Assembly: GCF_000243415.2 (NCBI RefSeq)
Contig: NZ_KI912270.1
Location: 3,224,001-3,288,000 of the forward strand
Length of the DNA stretch: 64,000 nt
Origin: Mycolicibacterium tusciae JS617
GTDB taxonomy: Bacteria; Actinomycetota; Actinomycetes; Mycobacteriales; Mycobacteriaceae
Direction: 5' to 3'
Shown in pieces: positions 21,858 through 48,966 of this stretch. The notes beneath the pieces were generated by a model. That model was not told the origin of the DNA and did no database searches. It was given only the letters and a program-made list of their open reading frames with translations. The first letter of the stretch is position 1. Each line of letters begins with the position of its first letter. Position numbers and translations under genes: made by a program.

Positions 21858-21891
21858 GCGATTTCGGTGCGCATACGTTCGATGAGCGACC
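21858..21891. repeat. Palindromic intergenic repeat, copy A, left half (split by IS481 element)
   Basis: GCGATTTCGGTGCGC (21858-21872) is the left arm of a ~53-bp palindrome seen at two other places. The loop bases GTTCGATGAGCGACC (21877-21891) are repeated exactly at 23223-23237 on the far side of the element, forming a 15-bp duplication. The right arm resumes at 23238. Confidence 0.8.
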
Positions 21892-23222
21892 TGTCCTGTT
21901 CGGGGACATCGCTGACACCGGTATGTCTTGAGACATCGCTGACACCTGAGTAGGGCCTCGACCACGATGGTTCATGGCCCAGAAGGTGACGGCAATGGAC
22001 ATTCGGATGGCTGCGGCGTTGGCCGGGCAAGTGGACAACGTGGCGGAGTTCTGTCGCCGCGAGCACATCAGTCGGCAGACGTTCTACAAGTTTCGTGGGC
22101 GCTTCCGTGACGGTGGGATCGACGGGCTGCAGGATCGGTCCCGACGGCCATTGACCTCGCCGGGTCAGACCTGCCCCGAGGTCGAGGACCTGGTGGTGCG
22201 CCGCCGCAAACAGTTGATCGAGCAGGGGCGAGATCACGGCGCCCAATCGATCGTGTGGTCATTGCAACGCGACGGTGTGCAGGCAGTGCCGTCGCCGTCG
22301 ACGGTGTGGCAGATCCTGACCCGCCGCGGGCTGATCACCCCGCAGCCGCAGAAACGTCCGAAGTCGGCGACGAAGCGGTTCGTGTTCGCGCGGCCCAATG
22401 AATGCTGGCAGTCAGATTGGACCGGATGGTGGCTTGCCGGTGGCAGTGCGGTGGCCATCGCGGGCAGCCTCGATGACCACTCCCGCTATGCCGTGGGGTT
22501 GCGCGCCGATGCCGGCGACGCCGACGGTGACCTCGTCTGGTCGGTCATCATGGCTGGTATCGACGAGTGTGGGATACCGTCGATGTCGTTGTCGGACAAC
22601 GGAATCGTCTACACCGGTAGATTCCATGCGCATGAATCGGCGTTCGAGATCAACCTGCGCGCCCTTGGTGTGCGCACGATCAACTCGGCACCGTTTCATC
22701 CGCAGACCTGCGGCAAGATCGAGCGGTTCTGGCAGACACTGAAGAAGTGGCTGTCCGCGCGGGACCCGGCGGCCACCGTCGCCGAACTCAACGACCTGCT
22801 CGAGGAGTTCCGCAGCTTCTACAACCACCAACGGCCCCACCGTGCGCTGCGTGGAGCCACCCCGGCCGAGGCGTTTCACGCCACCGCCAAGGCCCGCCCA
22901 GCCGACCGCCCACTTCCCGCACCCGTGTTCGTCAGCCACCACACCGTCGGCGAGCAGTCGGGCTACGTGTGCGCTGCGCCCTACAGGATCAACGTCGGCC
23001 TGCGCTGGGCCGGCCACGAATGCGACGTCATCCGCGACGGTGACCACATCGCGATCTTCAGCGGCAACCGACTCGTCCGCGCATTCACCGCCGACCCCGC
23101 CCGCTACCACCAACCCGCCGAACCAAACACCCGTACCTATCGCACTCGCGAGCCCAAACCGGCACCATGAGTGTCAGCGATGTCCCAAGACAAAAGTGTC
23201 AGCGATGTCCCGAGACACCACA
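21892..23222. mobile_element. IS481-family insertion sequence
   Basis: A 1331-bp element flanked by the 15-bp direct repeat GTTCGATGAGCGACC. Its outer ends (21892-21918 and 23196-23222) are imperfect 27-bp inverted repeats matching at 22 positions, starting TGT and ending ACA. Each end also carries a second inner copy of the same motif (21924-21945 and 23171-23192), sharing GACATCGCTGACAC or its complement. These doubled ends probably provide two transposase-binding sites per end. Confidence 0.88.
21974..23170 (+). CDS. IS481-family transposase
   Basis: 398 residues. An N-terminal helix-turn-helix (VAEFCRREHISRQTFYKFRGRF near 25-46) is followed by an integrase-like DDE core: first Asp in WQSDWTG, second in SLSDNGIVY, Glu in CGKIERFWQTLKKWL. 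The domain ends with NHQRPHRALRGATPAEAF, characteristic of this family. The frame is intact, so the element may still be mobile. Confidence 0.94.
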   Translation: MAQKVTAMDIRMAAALAGQVDNVAEFCRREHISRQTFYKFRGRFRDGGIDGLQDRSRRPLTSPGQTCPEVEDLVVRRRKQLIEQGRDHGAQSIVWSLQRDGVQAVPSPSTVWQILTRRGLITPQPQKRPKSATKRFVFARPNECWQSDWTGWWLAGGSAVAIAGSLDDHSRYAVGLRADAGDADGDLVWSVIMAGIDECGIPSMSLSDNGIVYTGRFHAHESAFEINLRALGVRTINSAPFHPQTCGKIERFWQTLKKWLSARDPAATVAELNDLLEEFRSFYNHQRPHRALRGATPAEAFHATAKARPADRPLPAPVFVSHHTVGEQSGYVCAAPYRINVGLRWAGHECDVIRDGDHIAIFSGNRLVRAFTADPARYHQPAEPNTRTYRTREPKPAP

Positions 23223-23252
23223 GTTCGATGAGCGACCGTACGCGCACCGAAA
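23223..23252. repeat. Palindromic intergenic repeat, copy A, right half
   Basis: Continues from the second copy of the loop (23223-23237) into GTACGCGCACCGAAA, the right arm, which then diverges from the consensus end ATCGC. It lies just beyond the end of the kinase gene at 23261. Confidence 0.75.
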
Positions 23253-23260
23253 CCACAGAG

Positions 23261-24817
23261 TCAGCGCCGATCCGTGCCGTACTCCAGAGCCGGCTCGGCG
23301 GAGTCGACGCCGCTCCTGCTGAGGATGGTCAGCATGTCGGGCTGCACCTCGTAGCGCGCGCCGTCGGCGGGGTTGGTCGCGGTGAATCCGCTGCCGGACG
23401 GGGTGGCATCGGACAGCTGGAGATTGGCACCGTCGCGCAGACGTTCTCCGCGGTAGTAGTACGTGCCCGGGCCCGACTCGCACACGACCGCAATGGATTT
23501 CGCGGTTCTGATCGCAGCCGCGGGCGAGCTCCCCGCGTCACATCGCGCCGTGCGGCCGACGAACCCCTGCGCGTCTGTTCCCGACACTCCCGAGATGGGT
23601 TCGGAACTGGCCGACGGCGACGTCGTCGTGGTGCTGGTCGTCGTGGTGCCGGTCGACGGCGACTCCTCCGACGGCGTGGTCGTGACCGTCGTCGTCTCCG
23701 GCGGTGGCGCGGCGAGCCTGGTCTGCGGCGCCGAGGCGCCGCCGCGGTCGCCGAAGACCAGCACCGAGGCGAGCACCACGGCCGCGGTGAACATCACGAT
23801 CGTCGCGGCCACCAGCGCCACCTGCGTAGTTCCGAACCGCGACCTCTTGCGCGGCGGAGCAGGCGGCGGAATCGGGGCGTGCGGCTGCTGGTAGCTCGTC
23901 CGCGCCGGATTCGGGTCGACGGCGGAGAACTGCCTGGTATTGGTCGGCGCCGGCGGCATCGGCACGGGAGCCGGCGTCGAATCCGAGATCGCCGACGCGG
24001 CGGCCTTGGCCAGTTCGCCAGCCGTCGGATAGCGGTCGGTGGGCTGCTTGGCCATGCCCTTGGCGATCACGTCGTCGAAGGCGCGGTTGATTCCCCGACG
24101 CATGATGCTGGGCCGTGGCGGCGGCGAGAACATGTGCGCGCCCATCATCTGCCGCACATCGCCCGCCTCGAACGGGGCACGGCCAGTGAGGCACTCATAG
24201 AGCAGGCAGGTCAGGGAGTACACGTCCGCGGCCGGACCACCTCGCCCGCCGCTGAACCGTTCGGCGGCCATGTAGGCACATGAGCCGATGACCAGTCCGG
24301 TGCTCGTCACATTCGCCTCGCCGCCGCCGTGCGCGATACCGAAGTCGACCAGGTAGGCGAAGTCGTCGGGCGTCAGCAGTACGTTCTCCGGCTTGATATC
24401 GCGGTGCACAAGGCCATTTCCATGTGCCGCGTCCAGCGCGGCGGCCACCTGACTGACGATCGACACCGCACGCCCGGGCGGAAGCGGGCCCTTGGCCAGC
24501 AGTTCGTCTTTCAGGCTGGCCCCCTCGACCAGGCGCATGTCGATATAGAGGACGCCGTCGATGTCGCCGAAGTCATGCACCGGGATGACGTGCGGTTCCT
24601 GAAGACGCGCGGCGACGCGGGATTCGCGCCGGAATCGTTGCTGAAAGCTCTGGTCCGCCGCCACCTCGGGGCGAAGCAGCTTGATCGCCACCAGACGCTC
24701 TCTGACGGTGTCATAGGCGCGGTATACCTCGCCCATTCCGCCTTCGCCGATCAGAGACTGAAGCTCATACGGTCCGAATTGCGTACCCACGCGAGTGCCG
24801 CCGTTCGGGGAACCCAT
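23261..24817 (-). CDS. Transmembrane Ser/Thr protein kinase
   Basis: 518 residues. Kinase domain about 16-275: loop IGEGGMGEVY, Lys46 in VAIKLL, HRDIKPEN, VDFGIA, and MAAERF instead of the usual APE. One membrane helix lies near 330-352 (VALVAATIVMFTAAVVLASVLVFG). A Thr/Ser-rich linker then leads to a ~110-residue extracellular domain with two cysteines. All residues for catalysis are present. The external part probably senses a cell-wall signal, as in related mycobacterial kinases. The IS481 element lies 38 bp beyond its 3' end. Confidence 0.9.
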   Translation of the reverse strand: MGSPNGGTRVGTQFGPYELQSLIGEGGMGEVYRAYDTVRERLVAIKLLRPEVAADQSFQQRFRRESRVAARLQEPHVIPVHDFGDIDGVLYIDMRLVEGASLKDELLAKGPLPPGRAVSIVSQVAAALDAAHGNGLVHRDIKPENVLLTPDDFAYLVDFGIAHGGGEANVTSTGLVIGSCAYMAAERFSGGRGGPAADVYSLTCLLYECLTGRAPFEAGDVRQMMGAHMFSPPPRPSIMRRGINRAFDDVIAKGMAKQPTDRYPTAGELAKAAASAISDSTPAPVPMPPAPTNTRQFSAVDPNPARTSYQQPHAPIPPPAPPRKRSRFGTTQVALVAATIVMFTAAVVLASVLVFGDRGGASAPQTRLAAPPPETTTVTTTPSEESPSTGTTTTSTTTTSPSASSEPISGVSGTDAQGFVGRTARCDAGSSPAAAIRTAKSIAVVCESGPGTYYYRGERLRDGANLQLSDATPSGSGFTATNPADGARYEVQPDMLTILSRSGVDSAEPALEYGTDRR

Positions 24818-25191
24818 ATGAATCCTTCCATCCTTTCGAAAGTGTGTGTGCAGGTCGATCCGCTGCGCTCATCCGAGTTCCCGCAACGCGATCTTCCTTA
24901 ACCCGCTCCCCGCAGCAGGTAGCTTGTGGCACCATCATTTGGGCCTTTGAAAAGGCCAGTGAAAGGGCCTTTGAAAGCAAAGCAGCACAAGCGATTTGCT
25001 TCAGTAGCCGAGTCTACAAAGGGTCGCGGAGCATTGCGAACTGATGACCGTCGACCTGCGCTGACGCCACCTGGGTGGTTCACCCTGAGTAGTTCGTCAC
25101 AAATTCACAGGCATAACGTTGGCAGCGAAGGGGAACCCCCATCTGTCGACGACAAGTCGGAACCCGTAAAAGATTTGCGACAGGAGCCGCA
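24818..25191. promoter_or_regulatory. Divergent intergenic region with a 16-bp palindrome
   Basis: A 374-bp gap between the kinase and the mycolate methyltransferase, which are divergent. GGCCTTT-GA-AAAGGCC (24942-24957) is a perfect dyad apart from its 2-bp centre. GGGCCTTTGAAA occurs twice (24941-24952 and 24965-24976). The region must carry both promoters. CAGGAG at 25181-25186 is the ribosome binding site for 25192. No convincing gene is seen. Confidence 0.5.
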
Positions 25192-26139
25192 GTGGCTAGT
25201 TCAAGTGAAAAATCCCAGGTGAGTGCCCCCACTGCGCAGTCCAAGTGGCTTTCCGACTCAGCGGCCCAGACCCGTGGCTCTGACAAGGACGAAGTCCAGT
25301 TCCACTACGACATCTCCAATGAGTTCTTCAAGCTGTGGCAGGACCCGACCCAGACCTACAGCTGCGCGTACTTCGAGCGTGACGACATGTCCCTCGAGGA
25401 AGCGCAGATGGCCAAGGTCGATCTCTCGCTCGGCAAGCTCGGCCTTCAACCGGGGATGACGCTGCTCGACATCGGCTGTGGCTGGGGTTCGACGATCATG
25501 CGCGCCGTGGACAAGTACGACGTCAACGTCATCGGGCTGACGCTCTCGGAGAACCAGAAGCAGCACATCGAGGACCACTGGTTCGCCAACTCCACGAGCA
25601 ATCGGTACATGGAAGTCCGGCTGCAACCGTGGGAGGACTTCGACGAGCCCGTCGACCGCGTCGTATCCATCGGCGCGTTCGAGCACTTCGGGTTCAACAA
25701 GTACGACGACTACTTCAAGAAGACGTTCAGCCTGATGCCCGACGACGGGGTGATGTTGCTACACACGATCATCATTCCGGAAGACGAGGAGATCAAAGCC
25801 AAGAAATTGCCGCTGACCATGTCGCGCGTGCGGTTCATCAAATTCATCATGGACGAGATCTACCCCGGCGGCCGGTTGCCCTTGGCGTCGATGGTCACGC
25901 AGCACGCGGTGAAGGCAGGCTTCGACGTCACCCTCGAGCAGCATCTGCAGCCTCACTACACCCGCACTCTGGATACCTGGGCGGCCAATCTGGAATCCAA
26001 CAAGGACGCCGCCATCGCCGTCACGTCCGAACAGATCTACGAGCGATTTCTGAAGTATCTGACGGGATGCGCCGACCTGTTCCGCGCGGGCTACACCGAT
26101 GTGTGTCAGTTCACGTGTGAGAAGAAGCAAGACACTTAG
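25192..26139 (+). CDS. Mycolic acid methyltransferase (CmaA/MmaA/PcaA family)
   Basis: 315 residues, GTG start with CAGGAG upstream. An S-adenosylmethionine enzyme that modifies double bonds of meromycolic chains (cyclopropanation or methyl branching). Motifs: [15 protein letters not shown] loop [18 protein letters not shown], the active-site Glu-His in GAFEHFG, His in MLLHT, Tyr in [10 protein letters not shown] and the tail [20 protein letters not shown]. All expected bicarbonate-site residues appear present, so it looks active. The ~35-residue N-terminal extension recalls CmaA2. The exact product (cis or trans cyclopropane) cannot be told. A second family member follows 24 bp downstream. 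Confidence 0.92.
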
Positions 26140-26163
26140 ATTAGTTTAGTAGGGTCGTCGACA

Positions 26164-27048
26164 ATGACTGACGTGAAATCCGGAACACCCGATATGCGGC
26201 CACATTTCGAGGAAATACAGGCCCACTACGACCTTTCGGACGAGTTCTTCGGCTTGTTCCAAGATTCCTCGCGAACGTACAGTTGCGCGTTCTTCCAGCG
26301 CAACGACATGACGCTCGGCGAGGCGCAGTTAGCCAAGATCGACCTGGCGCTCGGCAAGCTGGATTTGCAGCCGGGCATGACGTTGCTTGATGTCGGCTGC
26401 GGCTGGGGTTCGGTGATGAAGCGCGCCGTCGAGCGCTACGACGTCAATGTCGTGGGGCTCACGCTGAGCAAGAACCAGCACCGCTACTGCGAGCAGCTCT
26501 TCGCCACGCTCGACACCGATCGCAACGCCCGCGTCGAGCTGCACGGCTGGGAGGAGTTCGACGAACCCGTCGACCGCATCATCAGCATCGAGGCGTTCGA
26601 GGCGTTCCCCAAGGAGCGGTACTTGCCCTTCTTCGAGACGTGCTATCGAATCCTTCCCCACGGTGGCCGACTGGTGCTGCAGACGATCATGGGTCATCCG
26701 CTGAAGCGCTGGCCCGACCTCGGCATCCCCATCGTCATGTCCGACCTGAAGTTCATGCGGTTCATCGCGAAGGAGATCTTCCCCGGCGGCTCCATCCCGT
26801 GCGACGAGGACATCATCGGGCTCTCGAGCGACGCCGGCTTCTCGATGCACCACTCCGAGACCCTGAACCCCCACTACGTCCGCACGCTCGAGACCTGGGC
26901 CAAGAACCTCGAGGCCGCGCACGACGAGGCGGTCGCCGCCACCTCCGAAGAGGTTTACGAGCGCTACATGAAGTACCTGACCGGATGCGCGGACTTCTTC
27001 CAGCGGGGCATCAGCGAACTCGGCCAGTTCACTTTGATCAAGGGCTGA
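26164..27048 (+). CDS. Mycolic acid methyltransferase paralogue with altered active site
   Basis: 294 residues of the same family as the upstream gene. SAM loop LLDVGCGWGS and GLTLSKNQH are intact. Two active-site positions differ: the usual EHFG is EAFP (as in the MmaA1/UmaA branch, EAF) and the His of LLHT is Gln in LVLQT. Gln at that place is known from MmaA4, which makes hydroxymycolates. The combination is unusual and its reaction cannot be assigned by motif. It sits in tandem with an apparently normal paralogue and ends 7 bp before the convergent KasB-like gene. Confidence 0.9.
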   Translation: MTDVKSGTPDMRPHFEEIQAHYDLSDEFFGLFQDSSRTYSCAFFQRNDMTLGEAQLAKIDLALGKLDLQPGMTLLDVGCGWGSVMKRAVERYDVNVVGLTLSKNQHRYCEQLFATLDTDRNARVELHGWEEFDEPVDRIISIEAFEAFPKERYLPFFETCYRILPHGGRLVLQTIMGHPLKRWPDLGIPIVMSDLKFMRFIAKEIFPGGSIPCDEDIIGLSSDAGFSMHHSETLNPHYVRTLETWAKNLEAAHDEAVAATSEEVYERYMKYLTGCADFFQRGISELGQFTLIKG

Positions 27049-27055
27049 CCGCGGG

Positions 27056-28306
27056 TCAGGGTGCGCCGAAGGCCAGGGCGACGTTGTTGCCGCCGAGGCC
27101 GAATGAATTCGACACCGCGTACCGGTAGTCGCCGTGGCGGGGCCGATCGGCCACCACGTCCAGATCGATCTCGGGGTCCAGCGTCTTCAGGTTGCGGGTC
27201 GCCGGAATGACGCCGTCGCGCAGCGCCTGCACCGTCAGCACCGCCTCCACCGCTCCGGCGGCACCCAATGAATGCCCCAGCGCCGCCTTGGGCGCATACA
27301 CCGCCGCGGCATGGTCACCCAGTGCGCGCCGGATCGCACGGGCTTCGGCCAGGTCACCGAGCCTGGTGCCGGTCGCGTGCGCATTGATGTGGTCGACGTC
27401 CGTTGGCTTGATGCCCGCGAGCGTGATCGCCCTGCTGATGGCGTCGCCCGCCCGCTCACCGCTGGGGTCGGGGTCCACCACGTCATAGCCGTCGGACGTG
27501 ATGGCCGCGCCCATCAGCCGGGCCAGGATGGGCGCACCGCGCGCCTTGGCGTGTTCTTCGGTCTCGATGAGCATCAGCGCGCCGGCCTCGCCGAACACCA
27601 TGCCGTCCCGGTCGGTGTCGAACGCGCGGCACGCGCCTGCCGGATCGTCATTGTTGGTCGACAGCCATCCGAGGTTGTTGAACGCCGCGACGGGTACGGC
27701 CTCGATGCAGTTGTCGACACCGCCGCAGATGGCCACGTCGGCCTCGCCGAGAATGATCCCCTGCCAGGCCTCCGCGATTGCCGCGGCACCCGACGCGTCC
27801 GCCAGCACCGGCGACGTAACTCCCGCCTTCGCCTGGAAGTCCAGCCCCACCGAGGCGGCCGGAGCATTGGGCATGTGCATCTGTACGGCCAGGGGGTTGG
27901 CGGCTCGCAATCCACGTGCGTTGAGGTCGTAGTAGAGCTTGATCATCGCCTCGGTGCTGGCCAGCGCGAGCCCGATCGAGACGAGGAGGCGGCGGGTGTC
28001 GACTTCGGGAGATCCGGCGGCGTCCCACAGCCGGCGGCCCAGCACCCGCGACATTTTCTGCATGTACGACAGCCGACGCAGCTCGACGCGGTTGAGATGT
28101 TGGTCGAAATCCTCGCGGAGTACACCACCGATGCGAACGGGAAAGTCGTACTCGTCGACGAAAGGCTTATCGAGCCTGCGGATCCCGCTCTGCCCCTCCA
28201 GCAATTGCTGCCAGGTGTCCTCGGCATTGGTTGCGAGGGCATTGCTCGACGCGAGAGCGGTAACGACGACATCGGGAAAACCGTCGCCGGTGGTCTTGCT
28301 CGCCAT
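27056..28306 (-). CDS. KasA/KasB-like beta-ketoacyl-ACP synthase with catalytic Cys replaced by Asp
   Basis: 416 residues, the same length as KasA. Alignment from memory with KasB places the KasB motif ACASGAEAIARAW against ADASGAAAIAEAW here, so residue 170, the acyl-accepting Cys, is Asp (codon GAC at 27797-27799). The other catalytic residues are kept: His310 in NAHATGT, Lys340 and His345 in APKAALGHSLGAAG. The protein cannot form the normal acyl-thioester. It may decarboxylate, act as a partner subunit or chain-length factor, or bind acyl chains. It is convergent with two mycolate methyltransferases, which suggests a role in mycolate metabolism (inference). Confidence 0.92.
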   Translation of the reverse strand: MASKTTGDGFPDVVVTALASSNALATNAEDTWQQLLEGQSGIRRLDKPFVDEYDFPVRIGGVLREDFDQHLNRVELRRLSYMQKMSRVLGRRLWDAAGSPEVDTRRLLVSIGLALASTEAMIKLYYDLNARGLRAANPLAVQMHMPNAPAASVGLDFQAKAGVTSPVLADASGAAAIAEAWQGIILGEADVAICGGVDNCIEAVPVAAFNNLGWLSTNNDDPAGACRAFDTDRDGMVFGEAGALMLIETEEHAKARGAPILARLMGAAITSDGYDVVDPDPSGERAGDAISRAITLAGIKPTDVDHINAHATGTRLGDLAEARAIRRALGDHAAAVYAPKAALGHSLGAAGAVEAVLTVQALRDGVIPATRNLKTLDPEIDLDVVADRPRHGDYRYAVSNSFGLGGNNVALAFGAP

Positions 28307-28444
28307 GGGCCACCAAAGTCCTTTACTCAGCTAGCTGACCTGGTCGAGATTTCCCCAATCTACGACGGAATATGCACCGTCGTAGCGACTTTTTGAACCC
28401 GCCGGAAACCCCACAGGACCCGCAACTGTCCTAGCGTCGATTCT

Positions 28445-29323
28445 ATGACGGATATCGATCTCGAGGCACTCTCGACGGACACCCACGGCTACACCGTCGA
28501 CGACGACGACGATGACGACCCGATCCTGCTCGACCGGGACGGCAACCACATCGAAACGTGGCGGGAGCGATATCCGTATGACACTCGGCTGCCCCGCGAG
28601 GAATACGAGCGAGTGAAGCGGCGGCTACAGATCGAGTTACTCAAGCTGCAGAACTGGAGCAAGCGCACGGGTGCCCGGCACGTCGTCGTTTTCGAGGGCC
28701 GCGATGCCGCCGGGAAGGGCGGCACCATCAAGCGGTTCATGGAACATCTCAACCCTCGCGGCGCGCGGGTGGTGGCGCTGGAAAAGCCAACCGACCTCGA
28801 AAAGGCGCAGTGGTATTTCCAGCGCTACGTCACGCATCTGCCGACGGCCGGCGAGATGGTGCTGTTCGACCGCTCGTGGTACAACCGCGCGGGCGTCGAG
28901 AAGGTGATGGGCTTCTGTACGCCCGAGGAGCACGCCGAATTCTTAAGGCAGGCACCGATGTTCGAAGACATGCTGGTCAGCCAGGGCTTGGACCTCACCA
29001 AGTTCTGGTTCTCGGTGTCACCTGCCGAGCAGCGCACGCGGTTCGCGATCAGGTTGGTCGACCCCGTGCGCAACTGGAAGTTCTCGCCGATGGACATGGC
29101 GTCGGTGGACAAGTGGGAGGAGTACACGGCGGCCAAGGAGGAGATGTTCGCCGCGACCGATACCGATTACGCGCCGTGGATCGTGGTCAAGAGCAACGAC
29201 AAGAAGCGCGCCCGCATCAACGCGATGCGCCATCTGCTGGCGAAGTTCGACTACGACGAGAAGGACGAAGAAGTCGTTGGCGAGCCGGACCCGTTGATCG
29301 TGGGCCGAGCGCTGGAGGACTGA
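28445..29323 (+). CDS. ppk2: Polyphosphate kinase 2
   Basis: 292 residues, PPK2 class I. It transfers phosphate between polyphosphate and nucleotides, usually making GTP or ATP. Walker A is EGRDAAGKGG near 79-88, and Walker B is LFDRSWYNRAGVEKVMGFC near 136-154. The lid region carries the basic residues RRFA-type RTRFAIR. An acidic tract DDDDDDD precedes the core near residue 19. It resembles Rv3232c of M. tuberculosis. Its neighbours do not form an obvious operon with it. Confidence 0.93.
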   Translation: MTDIDLEALSTDTHGYTVDDDDDDDPILLDRDGNHIETWRERYPYDTRLPREEYERVKRRLQIELLKLQNWSKRTGARHVVVFEGRDAAGKGGTIKRFMEHLNPRGARVVALEKPTDLEKAQWYFQRYVTHLPTAGEMVLFDRSWYNRAGVEKVMGFCTPEEHAEFLRQAPMFEDMLVSQGLDLTKFWFSVSPAEQRTRFAIRLVDPVRNWKFSPMDMASVDKWEEYTAAKEEMFAATDTDYAPWIVVKSNDKKRARINAMRHLLAKFDYDEKDEEVVGEPDPLIVGRALED

Positions 29324-29980: not shown

Positions 29981-30174
29981 AGAACACGTCCTTAAAACGT
30001 ACGGGTACAGCCCATACATGCGATGTGGGCGGACTTAGATCGGTCCGCAGGCTGATCGCAGCAGCGACGGAATAGAAGTGCTGGGCGAAAGGCCTGACAT
30101 CCAATTTACCCGACCGGCAGCATTTACGGTGACGCGGCTCATCGTCCGAGGGGCGAAAGGCCCCTAAAACGTGT

Positions 30175-30207
30175 TGTGGGCTGGCGGGAAGAACCCACCA
30201 GCCCACA
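30175..30207 (-). terminator. Terminator of cspA
   Basis: A perfect 10-bp stem: TGTGGGCTGG (30175-30184) pairs with CCAGCCCACA (30198-30207) around a 13-nt loop. On the minus strand it lies 15 bp beyond the cspA stop and is followed by AACACGTTTT, a partial U tract, as expected for intrinsic termination. Confidence 0.75.
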
Positions 30208-30221
30208 CGACGAAGATTTAC

Positions 30222-30425
30222 TTATACGGCTGTCACACCGACTGCCTGCGGGCCCTTGGCCCCCTGCTCGACGGTGAACTCAACGCGCTGGTTCTCCTCG
30301 AGCGACTTGTAACCATTTCCCTGGATTTCGCTGAAGTGAACGAAAACATCGTCCGCTCCGCCATCCGGTGCGATGAAGCCGAAGCCCTTATCGCTGTTGA
30401 ACCACTTCACAGTTCCCTGCGTCAT
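30222..30425 (-). CDS. cspA: Cold-shock protein CspA
   Basis: 67 residues, full-length cold-shock domain with RNP1 KGFGFI and RNP2 VFVHF. It binds single-stranded RNA and DNA as a chaperone. The sequence is close to mycobacterial CspA (Rv3648c type). AGGAAAG lies just upstream of the ATG, and a terminator follows. The upstream 336 bp could include a long regulated leader, common for this family. Confidence 0.96.
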
Positions 30426-30761
30426 ACTTTCCTACTTCTTTCGTTCTGAAAACGGATGTCGACAAACACCCGGGTAAAAGGGTATCACGGCTTGCGCACA
30501 AAATGTATTCGCTTGCACTGGAAGGATTTTGGATTATCTGTCGATGGCGGGTGGCTCGTCTGCGGCGGATACTCTTGCCACCACCGTTGTCGACTTCAGT
30601 TGGGCAGCAATACTTCTGACGCGAACGCGAGCTATCGGTTGCGACACGGTAACGGAAGGATACCCATCCGGGTATCAGTAGTCACAAATATCCCACTGGT
30701 CACTATCGTCACATCAGCCAGCTATGACGTCCGTGCGACGTCGTGCCACGAAAGGTGTGAC
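30426..30761. promoter_or_regulatory. Divergent intergenic region between cspA and DUF4185 gene
   Basis: 336 bp, less GC-rich than the surroundings. It must carry the cspA promoter and probable 5' leader on the minus strand and the promoter of the DUF4185 gene on the plus strand, with AAAGG at about 30751 as ribosome binding site. An open frame through it joins the downstream gene but begins far upstream of the signal peptide and lacks coding character. No other gene is seen. Confidence 0.4.
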
Positions 30762-41102: not shown

Positions 41103-42458
41103 TCAGAGGCGTCCCGACGGCACTTCTGGCGCGCCGGCTGCGACCGATGCGACCTGTTTGACGGCGCGGACGGTGACCCGCCCGCCGCGCGCGGGCGTCA
41201 TGATCACGTGCTTGAGTTTCGTCTTCTCACCAGGCTCGGAGGTCGCGGCCAGCTCGACGCGACGAAGGATCTCGCGCAGCACGATGCGCATCTCCACCAT
41301 CGCGAAACCCGCACCGAGACAACGCCGATTGCCGCCACCGAACGGGAACCACGTCGTCGGGCTCAGTGTCGCGCCGACCATCCGGTCCGGATCGAATTTG
41401 TCCGGATCCGGGTAGACGTTCGGATCGGCGTGAACCGATGTGATGCTGGGGACCACCATCACCCCGGCCGGTAGCTGGTAGCCCGCCACCTCGACAGGTT
41501 CCTTCAGGATCCGACCCACATCGGGCACCACCGGGCGGATCCGCAGCGTCTCCTTGGCAATCGCATCGAGGTACTCGTCGCCGGCGGCATCACCGGCTTC
41601 GGCCGCGGCGACCGCCTTCGCCAAGATCGCCGGGTGGCGGGTCAACCGCTCCAACGCCCACGCCAGCCCGGTGGCGGTGGTGTCGTGGCCGGCGACCAGC
41701 AGGGTGATCAGCTGATCGCGCAATTCCTTGTCGCTCATGCCGCCCGCCTGGACCAGCATCGCCAGGGCGTCGGTGCGCTCGGCGATATCGGGATCGGCGC
41801 GGCGTTCGGCGATTTCGGCGTACAGCAGCCGGTCGGATTCCTCGATGTTGCGCGCCAACCGCCGCCACGGGAGGCGGCTCTGCAGGCTCGGTTTCGCGAT
41901 CGCCAACGACTCCCACGGGCCGACTCTCAACAGCCGCGGCATCACGTCACGCAGCGCCGCCAGCCGTACCGGGTCGCTGGCTCCGATCACCGTCCGCAGG
42001 ATCACCTCCAGGGTGATCTCCGAGGTCCTCGGTGCCACCGGGAACGGCTCGCCCACTGGCCAGCCCGCAATGCTGTCCGCCGCGATCTCGGCCATCAACT
42101 CGGCCTGCCGCGCGACGGCGTCGCGATGGAACGGCGCCATCATCAACCGGCGGCGCTCACGATGGACGTCGTCGTCGATCACCAGGACCGAGCTGTCGCC
42201 CAACAGACCGCCCAACATCGAATTGGCTTCGCCCGCATGGAAAATCCGCGGGTCACCGGCGAACACCGTCTTGATGACGTCCGGATCGGCCAGGTAGACC
42301 ATCTCCCCCATCATCGTGTTGCGCAGCGTGAAGATCTTGCCGTGACGGCGCCGGCATGCCGCGACGAACTGCGGCCACCAGCGCATCATCAACACCAGCT
42401 GCAGCGCCGCGGGCAACTTGGGCCCTGCGGGCAGGCCATTCTGCGCTGTTGGACTCAT
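41103..42458 (-). CDS. Cytochrome P450 (CYP135/CYP138-like)
   Basis: 451 residues from the ATG at 42458; a reading from 42494 adds an Arg-rich stretch without support. The I-helix motif AGHDTTATGLAWA, ExxR as KETLRIRP and the heme loop FPFGGGNRRCLGAGFA are all present. The N-terminal pattern GPKLPAALQLVLMMRWW recalls mycobacterial CYP135/138-type enzymes, which are longer than the P450 at 164-1396. Substrate unknown. It is divergent from the large membrane protein at 42613. Confidence 0.9.
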   Translation of the reverse strand: MSPTAQNGLPAGPKLPAALQLVLMMRWWPQFVAACRRRHGKIFTLRNTMMGEMVYLADPDVIKTVFAGDPRIFHAGEANSMLGGLLGDSSVLVIDDDVHRERRRLMMAPFHRDAVARQAELMAEIAADSIAGWPVGEPFPVAPRTSEITLEVILRTVIGASDPVRLAALRDVMPRLLRVGPWESLAIAKPSLQSRLPWRRLARNIEESDRLLYAEIAERRADPDIAERTDALAMLVQAGGMSDKELRDQLITLLVAGHDTTATGLAWALERLTRHPAILAKAVAAAEAGDAAGDEYLDAIAKETLRIRPVVPDVGRILKEPVEVAGYQLPAGVMVVPSITSVHADPNVYPDPDKFDPDRMVGATLSPTTWFPFGGGNRRCLGAGFAMVEMRIVLREILRRVELAATSEPGEKTKLKHVIMTPARGGRVTVRAVKQVASVAAGAPEVPSGRL

Positions 42459-42612
42459 GCCTAATACGCTACGTGCGCGAGTCAGCCCGGGCAAGCCTCG
42501 GCGTTTCCGGTCGGGACGGGAAGGGGGGACGGAAACGACCCAAACCCAGATCTGCGGCTAATGTGTCGGCGAGTCGCGCACCCGCGCGGCGCATCGGAAA
42601 GATCCTTGATAC

Positions 42613-44985
42613 ATGCGAGTTGACGGGCGGGACATCACCGTCACGGGCAGCCTGCTGCAGCCCTTGACCCGCCGGACCAACGACATCATCCGCGTGGCCC
42701 TGTCCGCGGTGTTCCTGGCCGTCGTCATCACCAGTTCGCTGATCACCCGCAACGAGTGGGTCGCCCTCGAACAGTCGGTGTCCGAGATCGTCGCCGTCCT
42801 GACTCCCACCCAGGCCAACCTGGTCTACCTGGTTTACGGCGTCGCAATCCTGGCGTTGCCGTTCGTGATCCTGGTCAGCCTTGTCGTCGCACGTCAGTGG
42901 AAACTGCTCGGTGCGTATGCGGCCGCGGCCGCGATCGCCGGGCTCGCGCTGTCGATCACCAACGCGGGTATCGCGGCGCCGCAGTGGCATTTCGACCTCT
43001 CCGACCGCCTCGACACGCTGCCTTCCCAATTCGTCGACGATCCGCGCTGGATCGCGATGCTCGCCGCGGTGCTCACCGTCTCGGGGCCATGGCTGCCCGC
43101 GCGGTGGCGGCGTTGGTGGTGGGCGCTGCTGCTGGCGTTCGTGCCGATCCATCTCGTCATCAGCGCCGTGGTCCCCGCGCGCTCGCTGTTCGGGCTGGCC
43201 GTCGGCTGGTTCATCGGCGCCTTGGTCGTGCTCGTCGTTGGAACTCCCGGGCTCGACGTGCCGCTTGAGGGGGCGGTTCGCGCGATGGCCCGTCGCGGGT
43301 GCGTCGTGTCCGCGCTCAAGGTGGTGCGGCCGTCCGGGGCCGGGCCGCTGATCCTGCAGGCGGAGTGCGAGCACCAGCAGACGACGGCCGTGATGGAGAT
43401 GTACGGACCACATCAACGCGGCGGCGGGGTTCTCCTGCAGCTGTGGCGCAAGGTGCGGCTGCGCGACCGAGAGACTGCACCCCTGCATGCATCCATGCGC
43501 CGCGCCGTCGAACACCGGGCGTTGATGGCCATCGCGATCGGTCAACTCAAGATCGCCAATACCTCCACAGTCGCCGTGGCCGCGCTCGAGCGCAGCTGGA
43601 CGTTGTACGCCCACACTCCCGTCAGCGGAACGCCGATCGGCGACTGCACCGCGGCCATTCCCGTCAGCCGGGTCTGGGAATCACTGCGCGAACTTCACGA
43701 CTGCCAGATCTCGCACGGAGATCTGCGCGCCAGCGAGATCACAGTCGACGAGTCCGTGTTGTTCGGCGGTTTCGACAGCGCGGAGTACGGCGCAACCCAG
43801 GCGCAACTGCGATCCGACATCGCGCAGCTGCTGGTGACGACGACACATCTATACGACGCGCCGACAGCGGTGCGGGCCGCCATCGACGTGTTCGGCAAGG
43901 ACACCGTACTGTCCGCCTCGCGGCGGCTCACGAAAGCGGCTGTGCCGTCACGCATCCGGCAATCCGTACGGGATCCGAAGGCCGTCATCTCCGCCGCGCG
44001 CGACGAGGTGAAGAGTCAGACCCGCGTCGACGAGATCCGCACCGAGACCGTCACCCGGTTCACCCGCGGCCAGCTGATCCAACTCGTGCTGTTGATCGCT
44101 CTGGTCTATGTCGCCTATCCGTTCATCAGCTCGGTGCCGACATTCCTCACCGAATTGCGCACAGCGAACTGGTGGTTCGCACTGCTGGGGTTGGCGGCGT
44201 CGATGCTGACGTACCTCGGTGCCGCGGCCGCGCTGTGGGCGGCCGCCGATGGCGTGGTCAAGCTATGGGGCCTGATCGTCATGCAGGTGGCCAACAAGTT
44301 CGCAGCCACCACGACCCCTGCGGGCGTCGGCGGTCTGGCGCTCAGCGCCAGGTATCTGCAGAAGGGCGGCCTCACCGCGATACGCGCGACGACCGCAGTC
44401 GCGCTGCAACAGTCGGTTCAGGTGATGACCCACATCCTGCTGCTGATCTTCTTCAGCACCGCAGCGGGCGTGTCGGCCAACCTTTCTCGGTTCGTTCCCA
44501 GCGTCGACGTCCTGTATTTGGTGGCCGGCCTGCTGCTCGGCCTCATCGGCACGTTCTTACTGGTGCCCAGGCTGCGGCGATGGCTGGCGACGTCGGTGCG
44601 TCCACGGCTGCAGGAGGTGATCGGTCATCTCATCGAACTCGGCCGCGAACCCAAGCGCCTGGCCGTGGTCGTGCTCGGCTGCGCGGCAACCACTCTCGGC
44701 AATGCGTTTGCGCTGTGGGCCGCCATCGAGGCGTTCGGCGGCGACACGTCGTTCATCACCGTCACCGTCGTGACGATGGTCGGTGGCACCTTGGCTTCGG
44801 CGGCGCCGACACCTGGCGGCGTGGGTGCGGTCGAGGCGGCGCTGATCGGTGGTCTGGCCGCCTTCGGGATGGCCGCGGCGATCGCGGTTCCGTCGGTGCT
44901 GCTCTACCGGGTGCTGACGACCTGGCTGCCGGTGTTCGTCGGCTGGCAGGTCATGCGGTGGATGACGAAGAACTCCAAGATCTAG
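42613..44985 (+). CDS. Large membrane protein: kinase-like middle domain between two membrane blocks (UPF0104/MprF-type C-terminus)
   Basis: 790 residues. The N-terminal block (about 25-225) has six or so helices. The middle (about 230-470) has kinase-like landmarks: ISHGDLRASEITVDESVLFGGFD resembles the HxDL..N and DFG segments, but the Lys and Asp positions are altered, so it may be a pseudokinase. The C-terminal block (about 490-785) is a flippase-type LPG_synthase_TM domain with FAATTTPAGVGGLALSARYL and SAAPTPGGVGAVEAALIGGL. It probably moves or senses a lipid (inference). It is followed by an IS110-type element 97 bp downstream. Confidence 0.82.
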   Translation: MRVDGRDITVTGSLLQPLTRRTNDIIRVALSAVFLAVVITSSLITRNEWVALEQSVSEIVAVLTPTQANLVYLVYGVAILALPFVILVSLVVARQWKLLGAYAAAAAIAGLALSITNAGIAAPQWHFDLSDRLDTLPSQFVDDPRWIAMLAAVLTVSGPWLPARWRRWWWALLLAFVPIHLVISAVVPARSLFGLAVGWFIGALVVLVVGTPGLDVPLEGAVRAMARRGCVVSALKVVRPSGAGPLILQAECEHQQTTAVMEMYGPHQRGGGVLLQLWRKVRLRDRETAPLHASMRRAVEHRALMAIAIGQLKIANTSTVAVAALERSWTLYAHTPVSGTPIGDCTAAIPVSRVWESLRELHDCQISHGDLRASEITVDESVLFGGFDSAEYGATQAQLRSDIAQLLVTTTHLYDAPTAVRAAIDVFGKDTVLSASRRLTKAAVPSRIRQSVRDPKAVISAARDEVKSQTRVDEIRTETVTRFTRGQLIQLVLLIALVYVAYPFISSVPTFLTELRTANWWFALLGLAASMLTYLGAAAALWAAADGVVKLWGLIVMQVANKFAATTTPAGVGGLALSARYLQKGGLTAIRATTAVALQQSVQVMTHILLLIFFSTAAGVSANLSRFVPSVDVLYLVAGLLLGLIGTFLLVPRLRRWLATSVRPRLQEVIGHLIELGREPKRLAVVVLGCAATTLGNAFALWAAIEAFGGDTSFITVTVVTMVGGTLASAAPTPGGVGAVEAALIGGLAAFGMAAAIAVPSVLLYRVLTTWLPVFVGWQVMRWMTKNSKI

Positions 44986-45081
44986 ACGGTATGAGGGGCT
45001 GGGGCCCCGCTCACATGTGAACGTGGGTTGCCGACAGGAATGTGGTCCTGGCCGGTAGAGCCACAGATGTGGGAGGCCCCA

Positions 45082-46164
45082 GTGAAGGTTCAGCGTACGA
45101 GTGTTGGTTTGGATGTGCACGCACGATCGGTGGTCGCATGCGGTCTTGATGGTGAGACCGGGGAGCTCTTCGAGCGGCGGTTGACTCCGGATCACGGGGA
45201 GATCCTGGCGTGGTTGGGTGATCTGCCTGGGCCGGTTGCTGCGACCTATGAGGCGGGCCCGACGGGTTTCGTGTTGGCGCGCAGCATCAACGCCGCCGGG
45301 ATCAGGTGTTCAGTCGCCGCGCCATCGAAGTTGCAGCGCCCGGTCGGCGATCGGGTCAAGACCGATAAACGCGATGCTCGTCATCTGGCCCGGTTGTTGC
45401 ATCTGGGTGAGATCGTCGAAGTCGAGATCCCCGGCGTGGAGCAGGAATCTGCGCGTGATCTGTTCCGGGCGCGGGAGGCCTGCCGCAAGGACCTGATGGC
45501 CGCCCGCCATCGACTCTCCAAGCTGCTGCTGCGCCGAGGGATCGTCTACTACGGCGGAACGGCCTGGTCACGAAATCACGAACGGTGGCTGCAGAGCCAG
45601 CGGTTCGACGACCCCGCGCTGGCGATCGCCTACGACACCGCCTTCGACACGGTGTTGACCACCACCGCTCGCCGGGGCCGCCTGGATGCGGCGATCACCG
45701 CGATGGCCGCCGATTCCACGTTCACCCCGGTGGTGACGCGGCTGGGGTGTCTGCGCGGGGTCTCGACGTTGACGGCGTTCGGGTTGGCCACCGAGATCGG
45801 CGACTGGCACCGGCTGAGCGGGCGTTCGATCGGCGCCTATCTGGGGCTGGTGCCATGCGAGTACTCCTCGGGAGACAACAGGGTCCAGGGCGGGTTGACC
45901 CGCACCGGCAACGGCCACGCCCGCCGGTTGTTGATCGAGGCGGCTTGGCATCACCGGCCGTCGTATCGGCCCGGTGAGGTGATGCGGCGTCGCTGGGATG
46001 CCGCCCCACCGGCAGCGCGAGCTCGCGGGCAGGCCGCCAACCGGCGACTGCACGCCCGCTGGCTGCGGTTCAACGAACGCCGCAAGCGTCCAGTGGTGGC
46101 CAATGCCGCCATCGCCCGCGAGTTGGCCGGCTGGTGCTGGTCGTTGGCCGTCATGGACGACTGA
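45082..46164 (+). CDS. IS110-family transposase (DEDD recombinase)
   Basis: 360 residues from the GTG at 45082, preceded by GGGAGG. The N-terminal RuvC-like DEDD domain has Asp in VGLDVHA, Glu in TYEAGPTGF and Asp residues in KTDKRDARHLARLL. The C-terminal Transposase_20 domain has LRGVSTLTAFGLATEIGD and SIGAYLGLVPCEYSSGDN, with the catalytic Ser near there. IS110 enzymes work with a bridge RNA encoded by the element's non-coding end. Element boundaries are not marked by inverted repeats and I could not fix them. Only 96 bp lie upstream before the preceding gene; the longer gap is downstream. Confidence 0.93.
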   Translation: MKVQRTSVGLDVHARSVVACGLDGETGELFERRLTPDHGEILAWLGDLPGPVAATYEAGPTGFVLARSINAAGIRCSVAAPSKLQRPVGDRVKTDKRDARHLARLLHLGEIVEVEIPGVEQESARDLFRAREACRKDLMAARHRLSKLLLRRGIVYYGGTAWSRNHERWLQSQRFDDPALAIAYDTAFDTVLTTTARRGRLDAAITAMAADSTFTPVVTRLGCLRGVSTLTAFGLATEIGDWHRLSGRSIGAYLGLVPCEYSSGDNRVQGGLTRTGNGHARRLLIEAAWHHRPSYRPGEVMRRRWDAAPPAARARGQAANRRLHARWLRFNERRKRPVVANAAIARELAGWCWSLAVMDD

Positions 46165-46396
46165 GAACAACTGAATCGTCCAGGTGTCCGTATCGAGGTG
46201 ATCGGCAAGCGTCTTGGAGTGACCCGCGGAAATCGCTATGAGCAATCATGTTGCCCTGCAACTGATCACGCTCGATTACTAGACCTGCGATCCACTCCGA
46301 CTCGAAGACCCGTCCTGCGGTAACCAACCCGCGCATATCAGACTGACACGCGTCGACACGACACGCTCGGCACCCACGAACGCTCACCTGGTCAAC

Positions 46397-46434
46397 GAAG
46401 CGGCGGCCGCAGCGACGGTTGCGGCCGCCGCTTC
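46397..46434. terminator. Very stable 15-bp hairpin
   Basis: GAAGCGGCGGCCGCA (46397-46411) pairs perfectly with TGCGGCCGCCGCTTC (46420-46434) around an 8-nt loop. No T tract follows on either strand. It could be a transcription barrier, the end of the IS110-type element or part of its RNA. It does not share sequence with the other repeats. Confidence 0.5.
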
Positions 46435-46470
46435 ACCCTGCCCACTTGACAAACCACTCCCCATATCAGT

Positions 46471-46517
46471 GCGATTTCGGTGCGCTGACGTTCGATGAGC
46501 GACCGTACGCGCACCGA
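46471..46517. repeat. Palindromic intergenic repeat, copy B (uninterrupted)
   Basis: Left arm GCGATTTCGGTGCGC (46471-46485), 23-nt loop containing CGTTCGATGAGCGACC, and right arm GCGCACCGA (46509-46517), after which it diverges by one base (ACATC for AATCG). It is the intact version of the repeats split at 21858 and 47409, and precedes the DUF559 gene. Confidence 0.8.
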
Positions 46518-46565
46518 CATCACTATCTGAGGGAACCAAACGACGCTGGCAAGCGTCCATTGGTT

Positions 46566-47426
46566 GTGCTGAACGACGTGCTTCGTGACCAAGACGGAGT
46601 CATCACCCTGGCTCAGGCCCGCAGCGTCGGACTCAGCTTGGAGTCCGTAGAGCGCCGAGTACAGGCCGGCGCATGGCGGCGGTGCAGCCGTGGGGTGTAT
46701 TTCGTCGACGACCGCGAGTTCGGCGATCGAGCGCGTATCCGCGCCGCCGTATGGGGTTACGGGGATCGCGCGACGGCCAGCGGACTTGCGGCCGCGTGGC
46801 TGCACAAGCTGACGCAGTTCGCTCCGGACATAGTTGACGTGACCATGCCGCGTACCGGGCACGGGCGTTGCCACGATGGAACCCGACTGCGGCGGCGAGA
46901 TCTCGATCCCAACGATGTATCCGTCATTGACGGGATACGTGTAACAGCAAGAGCGATAACAATTCTCGAGACTGCGATCATTCGTCCTGGCGGTGCCGAA
47001 CTGATGGATAGAGCTCTGCAACGTGATGTTGATCTGCGACAGCTGTGGCGAGCGCATCTCCGCAACAAAGGTCGATACGGATCACCCGCAGCCCGGCGCT
47101 TGCTGAACGCCGCCGATGACGGAGCGCGGTCGGCCGCAGAGCGTCTACTCGTGAAACTCCTACGTGAAGCGGGCATCACCGGCTGGCGAACGAACTACCC
47201 GGTTGCGGGCTACAAGGTCGATGTCGGATTTCCCGCGGCCCGGGTGGCTGTCGAGACGGATGGCTGGGCGTTCCACTCGGATGCGAAGGCATTTCAGATC
47301 GACCGGAAGAGGCAGAACGCTATCGCGCTGGCGGGATGGCAGGTCCTGAGGTTCACCTGGCTGGACTTGACGGAGCATCCGCAGCGCGTGATAGCCACCA
47401 TCCGCCACGCGATTTCGGTGCGCTGA
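46566..47426 (+). CDS. AbiEi-like N-terminus with DUF559 (Vsr-like endonuclease fold) C-terminus
   Basis: 286 residues if started at the GTG 46566; the start is uncertain as no good ribosome binding site is seen. Residues ~5-60 (LRDQDGVITLAQARSVGLSLESVERRVQAGAWRRCSRGVY) are the winged-helix domain named after AbiEi antitoxins. The C-terminus (~200-285) is DUF559 with the nuclease-like pattern VDVGFPAARVAVETDGWAFH and VLRFTW. The last five codons and the stop lie in a palindromic repeat, and another copy lies 50 bp before the start. Common in mycobacteria, role unknown. Confidence 0.78.
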   Translation: MLNDVLRDQDGVITLAQARSVGLSLESVERRVQAGAWRRCSRGVYFVDDREFGDRARIRAAVWGYGDRATASGLAAAWLHKLTQFAPDIVDVTMPRTGHGRCHDGTRLRRRDLDPNDVSVIDGIRVTARAITILETAIIRPGGAELMDRALQRDVDLRQLWRAHLRNKGRYGSPAARRLLNAADDGARSAAERLLVKLLREAGITGWRTNYPVAGYKVDVGFPAARVAVETDGWAFHSDAKAFQIDRKRQNAIALAGWQVLRFTWLDLTEHPQRVIATIRHAISVR

Positions 47427-47436
47427 CGTTCGGTGA
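47409..47436. repeat. Palindromic intergenic repeat, copy C, left half (split by IS3 element)
   Basis: Left arm GCGATTTCGGTGCGC (47409-47423) encodes the last five codons of the DUF559 gene. The loop continues TGACGTTCGGTGA to 47436, where the IS3 element begins. GGTGA (47432-47436) is repeated at 48937-48941. Confidence 0.8.
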
Positions 47437-47445
47437 CGGGCGTTG

Positions 47446-48411
47446 TCAAGCTGCGTGGAGTCGGTTGGGGTCGGTTTCGGCGGGGAGGTTGATGCCGACG
47501 ACGGGGCTGGGACTGTTGGTGTGTGGACGGTTGCGGAAGCGTTCGGGGTGGGCGTCGTAGTAGGCCTGTAGGGCGTGGTCGCGGCGATCCCATTGCCGCG
47601 TCCACGTTCCGTTGTGAACCTCGTCCGGAGTGAACAGCGCGATGCCGCTGTGGCGGTGGTGCTGGTTGTACCAAGGCACGTAGGCGCTCACCCAGGCGCG
47701 GGCGGCGTCGAGATCGTCGAAGACGCCCGGGTAGTTCGGTCGGTACTTCATCGTGCGGAACTCCGATTCGGAGTACGGGTTGTCGTTGCTGACGTGGGGC
47801 CGGTTGTGGGTCCGGCCGATTCCGAGATCGGCGAGGAGGTCCTTGAGCACGGTGGAGCGCATCGCCGGCCCGGAATCGGCGTGCACCACCAAGGGTGGTC
47901 CGTGTTCGGTGAACGCGGTCTCGAACATCTCCACGGCCATGTCGTCGCACTCGCGTTCCTCGACCCGCCAGCCCACGATCTTGCGGGAGTAGATGTCGAT
48001 GATCGAGTACGCCTTGAACGCCACACCACGCCACGGGCTCCGCAAGTCGGTGATATCCCAACTCCAGATCTGTTGCGGTCCGGTCGCTTTGAGCACCGGC
48101 GCCGACCGTGGCGCCTTGTTATTCGAACGGGTCGGCGCGACCGGCCGCGCACTTTGATCCTCGATCGCGGCCGCGATGCGCCACCACGACCGCCGCGACG
48201 CCAACACCACACCGGCATCCCACATCTCGGCGAAGGACTGATCCACCGACATCCCCGTCAGCCAGCCGGCGAGGATATGTTCGGCGATCGCCGCACGGTC
48301 GGAGACGCCGATACGCGAGGGGTAGGCCCGATCCTTGTGCGGCACCGGGTCGGCCACGCGCGGGCGCGGGTGCGATCGGTAGTGCCAGCTCGAGCGCGAC
48401 AGATCGATCAT
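47446..48411 (-). CDS. IS3-family transposase OrfB
   Basis: 321 residues as read from an internal ATG; the frame is open upstream to the OrfA region, so the functional product is probably an OrfA-OrfB fusion made by -1 frameshifting. The integrase core has Asp in WSWDITDLRSP, Asp in VVHADSGPAMRS and Glu in NPYSESEFRTMKYR. Ends with the WYNQHHRHSGI motif typical of IS3 elements. Confidence 0.9.
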   Translation of the reverse strand: MIDLSRSSWHYRSHPRPRVADPVPHKDRAYPSRIGVSDRAAIAEHILAGWLTGMSVDQSFAEMWDAGVVLASRRSWWRIAAAIEDQSARPVAPTRSNNKAPRSAPVLKATGPQQIWSWDITDLRSPWRGVAFKAYSIIDIYSRKIVGWRVEERECDDMAVEMFETAFTEHGPPLVVHADSGPAMRSTVLKDLLADLGIGRTHNRPHVSNDNPYSESEFRTMKYRPNYPGVFDDLDAARAWVSAYVPWYNQHHRHSGIALFTPDEVHNGTWTRQWDRRDHALQAYYDAHPERFRNRPHTNSPSPVVGINLPAETDPNRLHAA

Positions 48412-48446
48412 CGCCAGCGCTTGCCGTTGCGAACCGGTCGCCGCGG

Positions 48447-48911
48447 TCAGCTCGGCGACGAGTCCGTTCTCGGCGTCGAGGAATCGTCGAGATTGCGGAT
48501 CGTCGGGGTGGAGTCGGGCCCTGGCACGTTCAATTCGTGCAAGAGCCCGATAGCTTTTCCCAACGCCTCGTTGGTCGCCTCGAGCTCGCGGACCCGCGCC
48601 CGCAACCCAGCCAGTTCGGCCGCCTCGCGTTCCTGCTTTGCCGTCTTCGCCTGAACGAACGCCGCTCGTCTCCCAGGGGGACCTGTCATACCGCTACCCT
48701 CTCGCGGAATCAGGCCCCGGTCGAGATCACCGGCGAACACCGTGGCTTCCCAGCGCCTCAACTGGCGGACAGAAACCCCCTGAGCAGCACGCCAGGCCTC
48801 CTTCTGGCCATAAGGCTGCAAGTGATACTCAACGACGAAATCATGAATCTCCGCAGCCGTGAACCCCGGACTGATCGACACAACCCAACTCCCCACTCTG
48901 GTCGTCAACAT
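48447..48911 (-). CDS. IS3-family transposase OrfA
   Basis: 154 residues. N-terminal helix-turn-helix (GFTAAEIHDFVVEYHLQPYGQKEAWRAAQGVSVRQLRRWE split around 16-56) and a C-terminal leucine zipper-like helix (ELAGLRARVRELEATNEALGKAIGLL). Its 3' end overlaps the OrfB frame, which lies at -1, the arrangement used by IS3 elements for programmed frameshifting. No classic A-rich slippery site was seen. Confidence 0.85.
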   Translation of the reverse strand: MLTTRVGSWVVSISPGFTAAEIHDFVVEYHLQPYGQKEAWRAAQGVSVRQLRRWEATVFAGDLDRGLIPREGSGMTGPPGRRAAFVQAKTAKQEREAAELAGLRARVRELEATNEALGKAIGLLHELNVPGPDSTPTIRNLDDSSTPRTDSSPS

Positions 48912-48936
48912 GACTCACAACCAGCGTGGCAAAGAG

Positions 48937-48966
48937 GGTGAGCGATCGTACGCGCACCGAAATCGC
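48937..48966. repeat. Palindromic intergenic repeat, copy C, right half
   Basis: After the duplicated GGTGA (48937-48941), the loop and right arm continue GCGATCGTAC then GCGCACCGAAATCGC (48952-48966), a perfect complement of the left arm at 47409-47423. It ends 18 bp before the DUF2237 gene. Confidence 0.82.

Follow-up and report, generated by a model that had tools for sequence, protein, structure and literature searches.

How does one short palindrome come to hold unrelated mobile elements in its loop? We investigated this in a 64,000-nucleotide stretch of the Mycolicibacterium tusciae JS617 genome (contig NZ_KI912270.1, positions 3,224,001 to 3,288,000; hereafter the window, in whose coordinates features are given). 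The original prediction, made from this stretch, described three copies of a palindromic repeat, two of them split by unrelated insertion sequences (IS), and proposed a repeat family acting as an IS hot spot. We consider it probable that the repeat is a terminator-like hairpin at gene ends, whose dyad is recognised by transposases of the IS3, IS1182 and IS481 families, and to whose foot an IS1111-type element of the IS110 family is guided.

The 15-nt arm of the hairpin, GCGATTTCGGTGCGC, occurs exactly at 21858, 46471 and 47409 on the forward strand and at 48952 on the reverse strand, in agreement with the original prediction; two of the right arms (23242-23256 and 46509-46523) depart from it by two mismatches each, and only 47409/48952 is a perfect pair. 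When up to three mismatches were allowed, the arm was matched 17 times; shuffles averaged 6.56 matches, and none of 100 reached 17. At site 1, the exact left arm (21858..21872, +) and the right arm (23242..23256, −) enclose an IS481-family element (21892..23222, +; transposase open reading frame (ORF) 21974-23170) between the two copies of a 15-bp target duplication, GTTCGATGAGCGACC (21877..21891 and 23223..23237, both +), which is as first reported and whose midpoint lies on the dyad axis (offset 0.0). At site 3, the left arm (47409..47423, +) overlaps the 3′ end of a DUF559-domain gene (stop codon ending at 47426), the right arm lies at 48952..48966 (−) and the loop holds an IS3-family element (47437..48938, −; ORFs 47446-48411 and 48447-48911, both −). 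Its duplication had been read as 5 bp (GGTGA) and is in fact 3 bp, TGA (47434..47436 and 48939-48941, +), since in seven copies of the element the two bases ahead of the right-hand copy, GG or CG, belong to the element end. That right end reads GAGGG just before the duplication in four copies and GAGCG in three, and in all three of the latter the CG is accompanied by a GC on the left side. Site 2 (46471..46523; fold z −3.3 and −4.6 on its two strands) is uninterrupted, as described, yet an IS110-family element (44986..46467, +) ends three bases ahead of it; the score of site 2, 72.2 bits, is that of a sequence on which the covariance model used below was itself trained. A fourth site, beyond the three noted before, lies at the right edge of the window: an arm and half-loop (63397..63423, +), three bases past the stop codon of ORF 62722-63393, run into an IS1182-family element (63424..64000, −) that continues beyond the window. 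Thus IS481 and IS3 elements do split the palindrome, and the hairpin is used by four IS families rather than two. No Rfam family matched at the hairpin sites of the window.

The hairpin is a genome-wide family. A strict arm-pair pattern found nine sites in the 7.3-Mb genome and its reversed control none. A covariance model trained on these nine found at least 20 distinct intact sites at E<1e-5, the nine among them; this is a lower bound, as 150 of 6021 first-look candidates were scored. A looser pattern gave 18 sites: the stem is CGG-type in 11 of them (ATTTCGGTGC) and GTG-type in seven (ATTTGTGTGC), and four of the GTG-type sites were new. In total, 24 intact sites were counted, 16 CGG-type and eight GTG-type (the latter including C4:3778972, from the covariance model), two weak covariance-model sites (C4:1741989 and 3741173) being excluded. 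With 24 further hairpins that carry an IS in the loop, two of which are the split ones of the window, at least 48 sites were found, far more than the three copies to which the family might have been confined. Across the genus, the strict pattern with longer arms was present in 15 of 297 genomes, our own included, and its reversed control had no match. Stems look alike within a genome, while inner stems vary between genomes (for example CTGGGAGG in G279 and TGGGTTGCG in G262); this pattern may reflect homogenisation or a species-specific reader.

We then assigned the elements to families and counted their copies. The IS110-family protein matches the NCBIfam IS110 RNA-guided transposase profile at 196.5 bits, above the cut-off of 140. 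The three other transposases fall below theirs: the best NCBIfam profile of the IS481 transposase is IS481 (219.1 bits, just under the cut-off of 224), the IS3 transposase matches IS3 (143.6 bits, cut-off 160), with a Pfam rve match, and the IS1182 transposase, taken from a copy identical to the window's, matches IS1182 (229.8 bits, cut-off 270). The ends of the IS481 element show an 88% inverted match to each other over about 42 bp, and the second IS3 ORF had no family match in NCBIfam or Pfam. The genome holds seven IS3, seven IS481, 11 IS1182 (one split) and ten IS110-family copies (one split), IS1182 fragments of 72% identity at two places being excluded. Hairpin loops contain all seven IS3 copies, all 11 IS1182 copies and six of the seven IS481 copies.

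Within the loops, the insertions are centred. Flanks were joined by script, one copy of the duplication was removed and the best dyad was sought within ±12 bases. The dyad minus the midpoint of the duplication was 0.0 in 7/7 IS3 copies (3-bp duplication) and in 6/6 hairpin copies of IS481 (15 bp), and 0 or ±0.5 in 11/11 IS1182 copies (4 bp). We showed in this way, at the level of sequence comparison, that the duplications centre on the dyad axis. The median palindrome score at 20000 random positions was 3.8; these positions were taken from hairpin-containing loci, which inflates their top quantiles. The 4-bp duplications were identical in nine of the 11 IS1182 copies and non-identical in L104 and L107; that of the IS481 copy L086 was likewise non-identical. 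In L104, L107 and an IS1182-type copy of another genome, L209, the two duplication copies differ centrally, C against G, and L104 differs at one further base. This C/G difference could be the product of recombination between copies, or of insertion via a flipped hairpin tip. As a control, we examined the IS256 family of the same genome: none of 11 copies lay at a hairpin, and their palindrome scores were 2.0–4.8. These copies form two like-copy groups and come from 20 fetched loci (45 matches); in the second group the duplications range from 8 to 10 bp, and its ends are therefore less certain.

Homologues in other genomes were compared next. For IS481, 19 of 80 loci were retained (near full length and at least 59% identity, except the partial L126; other partial or distant loci were dropped), and in 13 of the 19 a 13–16-bp duplication was centred within one base of a dyad; L130 lies in a hairpin and its duplication was not delimited, and five further loci had no readable placement. 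The centred loci come from Mycolicibacterium rhodesiae (six), M. sediminis (three) and, one each, Mycobacterium sp. MFM001, Mycolicibacterium sp. J2, an actinomycete metagenome-assembled genome and Jiangella muralis, and their stems differ. For IS1182, all nine loci examined of the 15 outside our genome were at offset 0.0, three genomes contributing several copies, and L201 and L206 show one element in two hairpins with different stems within the same genome. For IS3, 17 of 26 outside loci were examined, and eight of them, from four genomes, were at 0.0. Stems resembling GATTTGTG are used by homologues elsewhere (L196, L201, L198 and L203; L113). The homologues use hairpins with other stems, and symmetry or shape therefore seems to weigh more than the stem sequence.

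The IS110-family element meets the hairpin from outside. Its ORF (45028-46164) is followed by a long non-coding right end (303 nt, against 42 nt on the left up to the first possible start), and AG cores stand at 44984-44985 and 46468-46469. In six of its ten genomic copies it adjoins a hairpin arm; the second arm is also present in five of these six, and in two cases an IS481 or IS1182 copy occupies the loop between the arms. The left flank ends in TAG in all ten copies, and in the window this TAG is where the upstream gene stops; the right junction is AG in nine and AA in one, and three of the ten right flanks start exactly with AGCGATTT. The predicted fold of the right end is strong (z −5.1) and includes an internal loop formed by the strands AAAUCGCUA and AUUACUAGAC. 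The nine bases of AAAUCGCUA are the complement of TAGCGATTT; if the adjoining base is added, the complementarity extends to TAGCGATTTC, which comprises a TAG and the foot of the hairpin. We thus place a predicted right-target guide at 46228..46238 (+), within which GAAATCGCTA is the reverse complement of the target TAGCGATTTC, and a predicted left-target guide, ATTACTAG, at 46275..46282 (+), on the opposite strand of the same internal loop, which would match left flanks ending in TAG. We examined the predicted pairing of the right-target guide in the eight elements, the window's and seven homologues, of 29 loci whose guide and right flank could be read by pattern. The match counted from the core averaged 6.25 contiguous nt, compared with 2.21 in 56 mispairs, and 4 of 20000 permutations were as good as observed. 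The IS1111-type element hence appears to be steered to the hairpin edge by an RNA guide, the RNA itself being predicted from the fold and the pairing.

Where do these hairpins lie? Among 32 examined (19 intact sites, ten IS1182 sites and three in the window, with genes called by a home-made gene caller; outside the set fall six sites with IS3, five with IS481, one with a split IS1182 and the four GTG-type sites new in the looser pattern), a gene 3′ end was within 40 bp of the hairpin in 31, and within 7 bp or overlapping in 29. Fourteen of the 32 lie between convergent genes; 14 of the 55 adjacent pairs of called genes in the window are convergent, and the stop-codon position is therefore the stronger signal. 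The TRIT motif of M. tuberculosis, reportedly described by Gardner in 2011 with RNIE and mentioned in PMC3526491, is a structured motif conserved at the 3′ ends of mycobacterial genes; our hairpin resembles it in position, being enriched there. From position and fold, the hairpin is most likely a two-way intrinsic-type transcription terminator.

Targeting by IS of repetitive extragenic palindromic (REP) sequences and of terminator hairpins is already known. REP palindromes, which the original prediction had mentioned as IS landing sites in other bacteria, are specific targets of the IS3, IS110, IS4, IS256 and IS5 families (Tobes and Pareja 2006, PMC1525189), and our system is similar in that several IS families target intergenic palindromic repeats. 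It differs in the host group and in the hairpin, which is about 49–53 bp, stands at stop codons and was found at 48 sites; in addition, IS481 and IS1182 are absent from the families named above, and the three enzymes here centre on the same dyad base. A REP is a short intergenic palindrome with usually more than 100 copies per genome (PMC2817692), and REP elements bear a GTAG or CGTC tag at one end (PMC3733652). Our hairpin is palindromic and at gene ends, though the 24 intact and 24 occupied sites found, a lower bound, stay below that copy number. The hot-spot proposal is thus supported genome-wide, while a terminator-like hairpin fits better than a REP, and the element is better named a gene-3′-end (terminator-like) hairpin. 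IS1397 and ISKpn1, of the IS3 family, insert into REP sequences (PMC1525189), like our IS3 element into a palindromic repeat, the repeat family here being unrelated. IS1272/TnSha1, of the IS1182 family, inserts in staphylococcal terminator hairpins, with no primary-sequence consensus reported (PMC4923244, PMC5678879). Our IS1182 element shares the targeting of hairpins; however, in the staphylococcal case the hairpin is partly deleted or replaced and no target duplication is made, whereas here a 4-bp duplication is centred on the apex and the hairpin is kept on both sides. The bridge RNAs of IS621 and the IS1111 group carry the guide in an internal loop, that of IS1111 elements lying in the long right end, and IS621 targets REP sequences (Durrant 2024, PMC11208160). 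Our element is alike in its IS110-family recombinase, in the guide within an internal loop and in a right end longer than the left; in contrast, its target, as predicted from sequence, is the foot of a gene-end hairpin in another host. Elements of the IS1111 group are further characterised by sub-terminal inverted repeats of 7-17 bp. A full-text search with two 11-mers of the arm gave no related mention, and we found no printed report of hairpin targeting by IS481 or of mycobacterial hairpins as IS targets; both searches covered open-licence papers, through titles and the starts of abstracts, and are weak for a literature mostly under subscription.

Several observations weigh against a dyad read by three transposases and a foot read by a guide. 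In our genome the 24 loop insertions occupy CGG-type stems without exception, and the eight GTG-type hairpins found have none (Fisher p 0.004); stem sequence or another property therefore has some influence. The IS481 copy L091 lies outside any hairpin. At three of the 24 centred sites (L096, L099 and L102) the palindrome scores are 5.6–7.0, under the random 99% point of 8.8, because mismatches or indels break the stem. Nine of the 17 IS3 homologue insertions are off axis (four genomes, one of them shared with the centred set), two of these, L217 and L230, being inside longer inverted repeats with stems that scored 18 and 17. The IS1182 homologues L196 and L201 have nearly the same hairpin and are perhaps not independent. 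As to the IS110-family element, four of its ten copies are away from hairpins and one of the six adjoining copies, L082, has the left arm only; in the window's copy, where the junction has two extra bases, the match to the guide consequently extends over no more than two contiguous bases counted from the core, and the largest mispair match, between related guides, reaches 9. Lastly, the terminator part of the proposal is weakened by the hairpin's lack of a U-run.

We weighed four other explanations. In one, the hairpin matters only as the carrier of a short symmetric motif at its apex, about TCGCTSAGCGA, whose sequence the transposases would recognise. An apex close to this motif is present in many targets and intact copies, and the eight GTG-type hairpins unused in this genome have other stems and often other apices; yet the apex varies among targets (GACCGCAGCGGG, CCCGTCAACGAC, TCACGCTGAGCGTGA and ACCGTAACCATTACGG) with the duplication still centred, and the IS481-clade copy of Jiangella muralis is in an unrelated stem. 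We judge this explanation unlikely. Less probable still is a coupling of transposition to termination, in which what attracts the transposases would be a stalled RNA polymerase or termination factor at the hairpin and not the symmetry of the DNA. The gene-end position of the hairpins would suit it, as would IS1272/TnSha1, several of whose target hairpins are terminators confirmed by RNA-seq (PMC4923244), but such coupling alone does not account for centring on the dyad base.

The same centring bears on selection as the sole cause, with insertion anywhere and survival only in harmless gene-end spacers. Insertion should cost little in the spacers at gene 3′ ends where the hairpins lie; however, the presence of all 24 duplications on the dyad axis is beyond what selection can achieve, and all 11 IS256-family copies examined in the same genome are away from hairpins. 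Centring and the IS256 control rule this model out, and we give it very little credence. A composite mobile unit with the arms as its ends, or a joint spread of hairpin and IS, seems even more far-fetched: two hairpins (46471 and 47409) do flank the DUF559-domain gene, and in another genome the IS1182-type copies L196 and L201 have hairpin sequence in common to the left and to the right of the element, but 24 sites have a hairpin and no IS, and the IS copies of our genome differ in loop sequence, duplication and flanks. The IS-free hairpins and the distinct flanks rule it out for this genome; the arms bound no single unit.

We therefore return to the dyad and its foot. As judged from the sequences compared, we established a hairpin family, its position at gene ends, its use by four IS families, the centring of insertions and the covariation of guide and target. 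In the mechanism that we propose, three DDE transposases, unrelated to one another, would recognise through their target complexes the two-fold symmetry, as duplex or as extruded cruciform; a staggered cut placed symmetrically about the dyad would then leave a duplication of 3, 4 or 15 bp with its midpoint on the axis. The guide in the right-end RNA of the IS1111-type element would pair with TAGCGATTT(C) at the foot of the hairpin, which would offer all these elements a safe landing site between genes. More tentatively, and as a possibility somewhat less likely than not, the dyad may be a largely sequence-independent address, probably a cruciform or hairpin tip at gene-end terminators, read to the exact base by unrelated DDE transposases that came to it independently, and by an IS110 element via base pairing.

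Other features of the window and the genome were recorded alongside. The gene flanked by two hairpins (46471-47436) encodes a DUF559/REase_MTES_1575 protein whose N-terminal part gives an AbiEi-type match, and a look for viral relatives of this DUF559-domain protein confirmed none. At 30174-30522 (−) an Rfam match to the cspA thermoregulator reaches 75.2 bits, just below the gathering score of 78. The IS256-family transposase match ends at about profile position 338 at six places, the last 40 positions lying some 3–4 kb off (L098, 616-5795; near C4:561566, 1571594, 2175696, 2472922 and 5289597). The gap in L098, the sole one read, contains a pair of tyrosine recombinase genes, and a DUF6262 end belongs to one of them, a content that resembles a Tn554-type set. 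This IS256-plus-recombinase stretch splits one IS110-family copy (L085/L098).

The choice of target by transposases is mostly poorly understood, and here three unrelated enzymes, with staggers of 3, 4 and 15 bp, centre on the same base. This is a natural experiment, in which designed hairpins can separate shape from sequence. Elements of this kind could be used as tools for insertion at gene ends, where the genes would stay intact. With an IS in the loop at 24 of the 48 hairpins found, a role of gene-end hairpins in genome evolution is suggested; if the dyad is indeed an address read independently of sequence, bacterial terminators would amount to a shared code that marks safe harbours for mobile DNA.

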